Assembly (NCBI GenBank): GCA_011391125.1
Contig: JAABRE010000031.1
Location: forward strand, 1-54,409
DNA length: 54,409 nt
Origin: Synechococcales cyanobacterium S06
Lineage (GTDB): Bacteria; Cyanobacteriota; Cyanobacteriia; Cyanobacteriales; JAABRE01
Direction of reading: 5' to 3'
This document shows positions 33,111-47,460 of this stretch, piece by piece. The notes beneath the pieces were generated by a model that was not told where the DNA came from, ran no database searches, and worked only from the letters and a program-made list of their open reading frames with translations. The position numbers and the translations under genes were made by a program. The first letter of the stretch is position 1, and every line of letters starts with the position of its first letter.

Positions 33111-34703
33111 ATGTCAGAAACAAAGGAAAAATCATTAGCTAAAATATCGGGAATTGTCGGAATTGCAACATTAATTAGTAAGCTTTTCGGATTAGTCAGG
33201 GAGCAACTCGTAGCAGCAGCTTTCGGTATTGGTGTAGTTGTCAATGCCTATTCCTACGCCTACGTTATCCCCGGTTTTCTCTTAATATTATTAGGAGGAA
33301 TAAATGGACCTTTTCATAGTGCTTTAATTAGTGTACTTTCAAAGAGGGATAAAAAAGACGCAGCTCCTTTAGTAGAAACTGTCACAACTTTGGTCAGTTT
33401 AATATTAATAATAGTGGCAATTTTGCTGTTTATTTTTGCCGGTATTTCCATTGATATATTAGCTCCGGGTTTACAAAGTGATGTGCGAGAAATGGCCATT
33501 TTACAATTACAAATTATGGCCCCTTTAGCCGTATTTGCTGGCTTAATCGGCATAGGTTTCGGCACATTAAATGCAGCAAATGTTTATTGGCTTCCTAGTA
33601 TTAGTCCCCTATTTTCCAGCGTTACTTTAGTAATTGGAGTCGGCTTTTTATTATGGTTTTTAGGAGATAAAATAGACGCTCCAGAATACGTTAAATTAGG
33701 GAGTGTAGTGCTTGCTGGGACCACTTTAGTAGGCGGAATTTTACAGTGGTTAGTGCAGTTAATTCCCCAGTCAAAAGCTGGTATGGGAAAGCTAAGATTA
33801 AGGTTTGATTGGAAGATTCCCGGAGTCATGGATGTAATTAAAGTGATGGGTCCGGCTACCCTTTCTTCTGGTATGTTACATATTAATGTTTATACTGATT
33901 TATATTTTGCTTCCTATATCGCCAATGCTGCCGCAGCCATGCGTTATGCTAACTTTATTGTGCTGACACCTTTAGGCATAATTTCTAACATGATTTTAGT
34001 GCCTTTTATGCCCATATTTTCGCGTTTAACTGCTCAAGAAAACTGGCCAGAATTAAAATTACGCATTCGTCAAGGATTATTATTAACGGCTTTAACCATG
34101 TTACCTTTAACCGCAATTTTTATCGCTTTAAGTGTACCAATTGTGAAGGTAATTTATGAAAGGGGGATGTTTAAATCAGATGCTTCGGCCATGGTTGCAC
34201 CGGTATTAATGGCCTACGGTGTAGGGATGTTTTTTTATTTAGCAAGGGATGTTTTAGTAAGGGTATTTTACGCGTTAGGAGACGGAGAAACCCCTTTTAG
34301 AATTTCCATTGGTAACATTTTTCTTAATGGTATTCTTGACTATTTATTAGTGGATGCTTTTGCAACTCCGGGGTTAGTTTTTGCGACCATTGGTGTTAAT
34401 GTTGTTTCCCTTATTTTAATGTTAGGAATCTTACATAAACGTTTAAATGGATTTCCTTTGGGAGAGTGGGGAATGGCACTTTTCGGGTTAGTTATTGCCA
34501 CCATAATTTCTGGTTTTGCTAGTTGGGGAGTTAACTTAGGTTTTACCCAATTATTTAACAGCAATAACCTGTTTTTACTATTAATACAATTAGGAATATC
34601 AACCTTAGTTGCCTTAGTTATTTTTGCCCTAATTGCCCTGCAATTAAAATTACCAGAAGTGGAAATGTTAGCAACTCGTATTCGGCAAAAATTAAGGCGA
34701 TAA
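33111..34703 (+). CDS. murJ: Lipid II flippase MurJ
   Basis: Moves lipid II across the inner membrane for peptidoglycan synthesis (formerly MviN). 530 aa with about 14 membrane helices, the normal size. The N-terminus SGIVGIATLISKLFGLVREQLVAAAFGIG is characteristic, as are the loops YERGMFKSDASAMVAPVLMAYGVGMFFYLARDVLVRVFYALGDGETP and the conserved arginines there. It stands alone, between repeat-rich spacers. Confidence 0.95.
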   Translation: MSETKEKSLAKISGIVGIATLISKLFGLVREQLVAAAFGIGVVVNAYSYAYVIPGFLLILLGGINGPFHSALISVLSKRDKKDAAPLVETVTTLVSLILIIVAILLFIFAGISIDILAPGLQSDVREMAILQLQIMAPLAVFAGLIGIGFGTLNAANVYWLPSISPLFSSVTLVIGVGFLLWFLGDKIDAPEYVKLGSVVLAGTTLVGGILQWLVQLIPQSKAGMGKLRLRFDWKIPGVMDVIKVMGPATLSSGMLHINVYTDLYFASYIANAAAAMRYANFIVLTPLGIISNMILVPFMPIFSRLTAQENWPELKLRIRQGLLLTALTMLPLTAIFIALSVPIVKVIYERGMFKSDASAMVAPVLMAYGVGMFFYLARDVLVRVFYALGDGETPFRISIGNIFLNGILDYLLVDAFATPGLVFATIGVNVVSLILMLGILHKRLNGFPLGEWGMALFGLVIATIISGFASWGVNLGFTQLFNSNNLFLLLIQLGISTLVALVIFALIALQLKLPEVEMLATRIRQKLRR

Positions 34704-34818
34704 ATTCTCCTAATTTAAAAATCAGATTTAAAAAAATCAGATTTTTAAACCCTTTTTAAGGATTACCAATTATGCCAAATATTTTCGCCAATCCTCCTAA
34801 AATGGCCACAATTAAAAT

Positions 34819-34859
34819 GATGTACCCCCCTACCCCCCCTTGAAAGGGGGGAAGTTACC
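34819..34859. repeat. 41-bp palindromic insertion with GAT duplication
   Basis: A hairpin unit (TACCCCCCTACCCCCCCTTGAAAGGGGGG type) bounded by GAT on both sides (34819-34821 and 34860-34862). Removing 41 bp restores an open frame on the minus strand from 35126 to a stop at 34756. Similar C/G-run palindromes occur at 47182-47208 and 47388-47453. Confidence 0.75.
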
Positions 34860-35126
34860 GATTAAAACTCCACGATTAACAAACTCTTGAAACTCCATTC
34901 TTTTTCCAATTCTTTCCACCTTTTCTTCGACTATTTTAACTTCACCTTTTAAGTCAGTTTCAACCCGTTTAATTTCACCTTCTAAACGAATTTGACCAAT
35001 TTTTAAATCGGTAATATCCTCCTGCATTTTTTCTAATTTTTGGTCAATTTTATTAAACCTTTGTTCAAAACTCGAAAATTTCTGATCTAGATATTCTTTT
35101 AAATCCTGTTCAATGGTGACTGACAT
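34830..35126 (-). CDS. Coiled-coil protein, C-terminus truncated by a repeat insertion
   Basis: 98 aa as it now reads. Residues 1-82 form a coiled coil with heptads FEQRFNKIDQKLEKMQEDITDLKIGQIRLEGEIKRVE and the family-like end EFQEFVNRGVLI. The last residues (GNFPPFKGG) come from a 41-bp palindromic insertion that brings a stop codon. Beyond the insertion the minus strand continues ATC ATT TTA ATT GTG, encoding IILIVAILGGLAKIFGIIGNP and a stop at 34756. The original protein therefore carried a C-terminal membrane anchor, now lost. Expression of the short form is uncertain. Confidence 0.7.
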   Translation of the reverse strand: MSVTIEQDLKEYLDQKFSSFEQRFNKIDQKLEKMQEDITDLKIGQIRLEGEIKRVETDLKGEVKIVEEKVERIGKRMEFQEFVNRGVLIGNFPPFKGG

Positions 35127-35246: not shown

Positions 35247-35459
35247 TTAATCAACGTTCCACCAACCAAAACCTGGTCCAATTACCCTGACAGTTAACCA
35301 GAGAATGACCATTGCACCAATGCCAAGCCAAGCGCCTTTCGTGGTAATCTCGTAAAATTGTTGCCCTTGGGTTTTCGTAATTGGTAACCAAGAATAAACC
35401 CTTTCTTCTTTACCGTAATCTTCGCCTAAATTTGTTTTTCTTCGTTTTGCTTCGCCCAT
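35247..35459 (-). CDS. DUF2839 domain-containing protein
   Basis: 70-aa cyanobacterial protein. It opens with MGEAKRRKTNLGEDYG, a SecA-tail-like metal-binding start, then WLPITKTQGQQFYEITTKGAWLGIGAMVILWLTVRVIGPGFGWW with one membrane helix near residues 42-62. DUF2839 is conserved across cyanobacteria but its function is not known to me. A perfect hairpin terminator follows the stop codon. Confidence 0.92.
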   Translation of the reverse strand: MGEAKRRKTNLGEDYGKEERVYSWLPITKTQGQQFYEITTKGAWLGIGAMVILWLTVRVIGPGFGWWNVD

Positions 35460-47181: not shown

Positions 47182-47460
47182 TCCCCCCTAACCCCCCTTA
47201 CTAAGGGGGGCTGTTTCAAAGTCGAGAGCAAAATTTGAAGACCCTCACCCCCAACCCCTCATCCCAAAGGGAGAGGGGAGCATATTTCCTAATATTTAAA
47301 ACCTGTTTTTTAAGTATTAGGAAAAAGGTATTTAAACTCATATTTGGCAAGGGGTTCAAAAAGAGCAAATTTTACTTTGAAACAGCCCTGCCCTTACTAA
47401 GGGGGGGATTCGGAGTTCTTCTAACCCCCCTTACTAAGGGGGGACTAAGGGGGGATAATT
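47182..47460. repeat. Cluster of CCCCCCTTACTAAGGGGGG palindromes
   Basis: The C-run/CTTACTAAG/G-run palindrome occurs at about 47192-47210, again at 47389-47408 after the MITE, and twice more at 47425-47453. The first and second copies look like one palindrome array split by the MITE at 47209-47387. A plus-strand open frame through this region (47235-47474) is repeat-derived and not counted as a gene. Confidence 0.75.
47209..47387. mobile_element. 179-bp MITE with GGCTGTTTCAAAGT ends
   Basis: Perfect 14-bp terminal inverted repeats, GGCTGTTTCAAAGT (47209-47222) and ACTTTGAAACAGCC (47374-47387), with AAATTT next to both. The interior holds the hairpin core CCCTCATCCCAAAGGGAGAGGGG (47256-47278) also found in the MITE at 32972. 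It has no coding capacity. Confidence 0.8.

Follow-up and report, generated by a model that had tools for sequence, protein, structure and literature searches.

We describe here a small palindromic repeat from the genome of Synechococcales cyanobacterium S06, whose history is probably that of a recent repeat family which entered a family of paralogous genes once and then spread by copying to the corresponding site in further members, with loss of a predicted membrane anchor. With a 37-bp core and a net insertion of 40-41 bp, the unit would be a small, non-coding palindromic repeat whose family has undergone a recent expansion within this lineage of cyanobacteria, and its point of entry would have been one of a set of paralogues encoding short coiled-coil proteins anchored at the C-terminus, at a fixed site directly before the anchor codons. 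Onward copying into the equivalent position in other paralogues would most likely have involved gene conversion or recombination among them, each filled copy coming to carry a stop within the unit and losing the predicted anchor. The data below show the insertion and its edges relative to empty paralogues, the truncated reading frame, the recency of the unit compared with the paralogues, the privacy of the repeat family and in-frame copies in other genes; we infer the route of copying, a location in the membrane, and a product of the filled genes that is soluble or dead.

A palindromic unit at the end of a coiled-coil gene

The window, that is the whole analysed stretch of 54,409 nucleotides, carries an open reading frame (35126-34830, minus strand) placed between murJ and the DUF2839 gene (Table 1), the 3' end of which falls within a palindrome made of C and G runs. 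Such a frame ending in a palindrome, with an anchor-like stretch out of frame behind it, had been pointed out in the original prediction, and both are seen in the window. No Pfam match of the gene exceeded the curated cut-off: a weak XhlA signal of 20.7 bits (cut-off 34.7) could be an effect of the coiled coil. In 8 relatives, neither a coiled-coil gene nor a DUF2839 gene was found adjoining murJ within 3 kb flanks.

Table 1. Features around the palindromic unit, with positions in the window
Feature	Position	Strand	Remarks
Truncated coiled-coil gene	34830..35126	minus	98 aa; ends in ...NRGVLIGNFPPFKGG and a stop; TAG comes from the unit
Out-of-frame remnant, predicted membrane anchor	34756..34821	minus	reads IILIVAILGGLAKIFGIIGNP and a stop
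41-bp unit	34817..34857	no strand	delimited against the six unit-free paralogues
37-bp core GATG...AAGT	34819..34855	plus	common to dispersed copies across the genome
Palindrome CCCCCCTTGAAAGGGGGG	34834..34851	no strand	predicted fold: 7-bp stem, 4-nt loop
Neighbour: lipid II flippase MurJ	33111..34703	plus	Pfam PF03023
Neighbour: DUF2839 protein	35247..35459	minus	Pfam PF10999

Used as a DNA query against its own genome (4.81 Mb in 168 contigs), the window gene returned 67 matches, corresponding to paralogues and to dispersed copies of the unit; this genome holds 19 or more recognisable paralogues, the window gene among them. The alignment was built from the window gene and 19 pieces taken from 15 genome stretches, and came to 19 rows after removal of L021c, a dead fragment; low-similarity relatives in the same genome (C11:40611, C11:41982, C89:54849, C31, C134, C130:18369 and C113:44620) lie outside it. 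The unit is found in 11 of the 19 aligned paralogues, window gene included, always at the identical position. Six (L017, L020, L021a, L021b, L022, L023) are empty, and their frame continues into a hydrophobic C-terminus. The two others carry longer inserts at the same site: in L018 the unit is split by a MITE-like piece, and the right side of the L019 insert falls outside the alignment. L013 features an additional stop upstream, and in L020 the start codon is replaced by ATA.

Since six paralogues are unit-free with a hydrophobic tail and eleven are filled at one site, the unit has been inserted and the predicted anchor is real. This comparison, together with homologues having intact tails in other genomes, supports the proposal that a live gene was hit by the unit and thereby lost its predicted membrane anchor. 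According to the same proposal, unit-free homologues should continue into the anchor sequence, as the six paralogues of this genome do. The hydropathy peak (19-residue mean) was measured in two unit-free paralogues, where it is 2.2, and in the truncated window protein, where it is 0.2. Homologues of the coiled-coil protein were detected in at least 26 of 59 other genomes; under a loose pattern, a C-terminal hydrophobic motif is present in 16 of the 28 foreign loci inspected, 11 of which differ at no more than 8 of 23 residues, and absent from the other 12.

Comparison with the six unit-free paralogues also bears out the 41-bp size proposed for the window copy. On the gene strand, this copy reads TAACTT...CATCAT (34857-34817), as the host sequence restarts after ...ATCGG; in empty copies, the host sequence is ...GG to the left and TTTTATT to the right of the site. 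Filled paralogues share the layout TAACTT-CCCCCC-loop-GGGGGGG-TA-GGGGGG-TACATCA(T) and terminate inside the unit, at GGG GGG TAG, the C-terminus of the truncated proteins being NFPP(F/C)KGG (...IGNFPPFKGG in the window gene). The unit is 41 bp long in eight of them and 40 bp in three (L012a, L012b, L015), and three types of right junction are recognised. Its ends are GATG and AAGT, with a GTAG lying internally, on the 3' side of the stem when read along the gene strand. The predicted hairpin of the palindrome has a z score of -1.89 relative to shuffles.

Other details of the original prediction have to be corrected. Removal of the unit had been proposed to join LI to ILI; unit-free paralogues give LIG-F-I, and the peptide restored by the join is IGF rather than IIL. 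A 3-bp duplication had also been proposed, but the left triplet is ATC in 3, ATT in 7 and ATG in 1 of the 11 filled copies, and the right ATC belongs to the unit, being invariant in filled copies and present in the dispersed copies elsewhere. The left GAT, considered as target duplicate, is host sequence found in just 3 of the 11 filled copies. At this site, a 3-bp duplication is thereby refuted.

Age of the unit and its probable spread among paralogues

On average, filled copies are 98.4% identical to each other within the unit, 83% over the 60 columns on its left and 81% over the anchor region. Over 40 bp, the unit is identical in 9 of the 11 filled copies, the C26 pair differing by 2 loop bases; with this pair excluded, variable columns among the nine copies are 0 of 40 in the unit versus 12 of 40 in the nearest flank (p 0.0002). 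Synonymous differences in the anchor amount to about 0.49 per site between filled paralogues, a figure that would imply a much greater divergence of the unit, had the insertion been old and vertically inherited. Judged from sequence divergence, the paralogues are older than the unit they carry. A general constraint on the loop is not indicated, since loops differ across the wider unit family (TCGCGA, TTGGTAA, TTTAAA and others). In a weakly resolved tree, filled and empty copies are interleaved, with at least 4 changes between the filled-or-insert and the empty state, 2 of which are forced by well-supported branches.

A single entry with subsequent copying is a better fit than a series of hops, because units of the coiled-coil family share one loop type: TTGAAA is found in 9 of 12 of them versus 2 of the 24 remaining exact-core units (p 0.0001; the counts take in all 36 exact-core units, and C100, a cut-off unit, is scored as not TTGAAA). 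The 40-bp junction type is common to L012a, L012b and L015, as is the adjacent RQGF block; the N-terminus of L012b differs from those of the two others, a combination that looks like block exchange. Against conversion, filled copies disagree at the bases immediately next to the unit (ATC, ATT or ATG before GG), and long conversion tracts are disfavoured, since they would have homogenised these bases. A test for conversion tracts, measuring the filled-empty minus the filled-filled distance, gave 0.043 for near (p 0.108) and 0.003 for far positions (p 0.404). Neither a clean target duplication nor a dedicated transposase was found, which also counts against one entry with copying, as does the wide scatter of anchor pN/pS between individual filled/empty pairs.

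Repeated targeted insertion is kept as a serious rival, because unit-touching bases differ and the tract test is not significant, but we consider it unlikely. A mobilising enzyme would have hit one target again and again, the 11 filled copies representing many separate transpositions. In agreement with this, invariance ends at the unit edges, where adjacent bases differ; right junctions are of three types; a near-identical pair, at 3% divergence, has L010 filled and L020 empty; and a methyltransferase family, described below, features two unlike unit types near one loop. Targeted insertion is harder to reconcile with a coiled-coil family that drew mostly one loop type from a varied genome pool (the 9 of 12 versus 2 of 24 above), and with dispersed copies whose target sequences are unlike one another.

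Much less credit is given to a phase switch, in which the G7 run before the stop would let replication, transcription or the ribosome slip, the anchored protein being sometimes made and the anchor selected. With the run altered by one, the frame can indeed continue through the anchor (123 aa), and the anchor stretch remains open, out of frame, in the 11 filled copies, where it is as constrained as in empty ones (pN/pS 0.19 filled versus 0.21 empty). However, the three filled copies with a 40-bp insert would need another shift, and the run is of seven in 11 of 11 copies, while a switch should give length variants. Equal constraint in filled and empty copies is, moreover, what is expected of a recent truncation, and recency is the simplest explanation of the intact anchor codons. 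Marginally less probable still is that the unit acts as a spreading switch, which would promote its own copying between paralogues, for example via strand breaks or four-stranded G structures starting recombination, and whose G7 run would flip its carriers between anchored and unanchored forms. An assembly artefact due to collapsed repeats is the least credible reading: the genome is in 168 contigs, some of which end at element ends beside units, but filled copies with distinct gene bodies lie on eight contigs beyond that of the window.

Copies of the unit elsewhere in the genome

Exact matches to the 20-base core GATGTACCCCCCTACCCCCC number 36 genome-wide, rising to 42 when up to 2 mismatches are allowed; a reversed control has none. 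In 147 relatives, all of the same order only and none closer, 8 two-mismatch core sites were found in 7 genomes, no more than with the reversed control. By this count, the repeat family is private to its own genome.

In WecB the unit lies in frame and corresponds to exactly 14 extra residues, which are missing from 11 of 11 aligned relatives; a WecB match was found in 17 of 19 other genomes searched, and the best PDB homologue is also without residues at the insert position. The window locus had been put forward as direct evidence of mobility. Mobility of the unit as such is supported by the in-frame WecB insert, but a hop into the window gene was overclaimed, because eleven paralogues share the unit and its position and recombination with a paralogue is possible; the window copy may have acquired its unit by this route.

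Two methyltransferase paralogues (C85, C154) carry the same in-frame unit, and two others (C89, C137) have another type of C/G unit in roughly that loop; at this loop, neither unit was found in ten own and eight foreign homologues, in a count that leaves out L173. These sites give no clean edge, since both replacement and insertion separate filled from empty copies. A helicase gene on C132 contains two units. For both types of gene, the label is one that we assume from conserved motifs in the translations. Genic copies are mostly found where the frame survives, the coiled-coil family being the truncating exception. Differing in-frame C/G units also lie near one loop in a large methyltransferase-like family (L171, L172, L161, L162), and in L120, equally methyltransferase-like, a second site carries a C/G unit.

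Head-to-tail arrays of three units occur in L054 (C146:33374-33479) and L064 (C44:24682-24780), with spacings of 43 bp and 39-40 bp, respectively. In L069 (C130), L051 (C78) and L060 (C107), units are centred in longer inverted repeats (GTCAATAA...TTATTGAC; TTTTCC...GGAAAA). At 47183-47450 of the window, a MITE-like piece of about 180 bp (CTGTTTCAAAG...CTTTGAAACAG) is found inside a C/G palindrome, with CCCTTACTAAGGGGGG on either side; its end sequence has 33 genome sites, and is also present at the unit's site in L018 and L019. Another element end, GTGTTTTCATTCTCAAAATT, has 15 genome sites, and lies close to contig ends at C53:147, C80:187, C84:59477, C116:33444, C142:186, C145:76 and C78:66808, adjoining a half unit on C80 and C116. 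This pattern would fit an assembly broken by a long multi-copy element that has lodged in C/G units.

Relation to known small repeats

The SDRs of Nostoc and relatives (Elhai et al. 2008) are reportedly hairpin-forming sequences of 21-27 nt that are apparently mobile, occupy defined sites and occur nested among other repeats. The unit is similarly a very small, hairpin-forming and apparently mobile cyanobacterial repeat, with defined sites and nesting of its own, but its 37-41 bp of C and G runs exceed the size reported for SDRs. SDR5 occurs in HIP1 (PMC4390886), whereas the empty site described here contains no HIP1 octamer.

GTAG REPs are palindromes of 20-40 bp, present in cyanobacteria, sometimes within ORFs or longer palindromes, and often providing a TAG stop (PMC3733652). 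The unit is likewise a palindrome of this size in many copies (37-bp core, 36 exact 20-base cores, predicted hairpin), and the units of L069, L051 and L060 within inverted repeats resemble the GTAG REPs inside palindromes of that account; however, GTAG, terminal in those REPs, lies beside the stem, inside the unit. GTAG REPs are also associated with RAYT transposases; here, the genome has 7 Y1_Tnp matches, counted irrespective of their linkage to units.

Rickettsia palindromic elements are palindromic repeats, about 150 bp long and located in frame in unrelated genes (PMC10969869). In-frame gene insertion is shared by the unit (WecB, helicase, methyltransferases), but its 40-42 bp of net insertion come to roughly one quarter of their length, and the Rickettsia elements extend proteins, whereas the unit truncates them in the coiled-coil family. 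MITEs are, like the unit, short, non-coding and dispersed, but the length given for them is 70-300 bp (PMC3733652), above that of the unit; nor is a target-site duplication, as expected of MITEs, found in the comparison of six empty and eleven filled copies, the one base-exact site.

No description of the unit was found in a literature search by title and abstract, which left most subscription papers outside reach. As it behaves like the known kinds, but departs from each in a tested defining feature, the unit is a new family of the general REP/SDR/RPE-like kind.

To our knowledge, mobility of very small bacterial repeats is usually inferred, exact empty sites being seldom available. Here, because one genome holds eleven filled and six empty copies, along with in-frame inserts checked against relatives, it becomes possible to measure how old a 40-bp element is, where it ends and how it has spread, and a small repeat can be seen to alter the predicted protein topology throughout a gene family.
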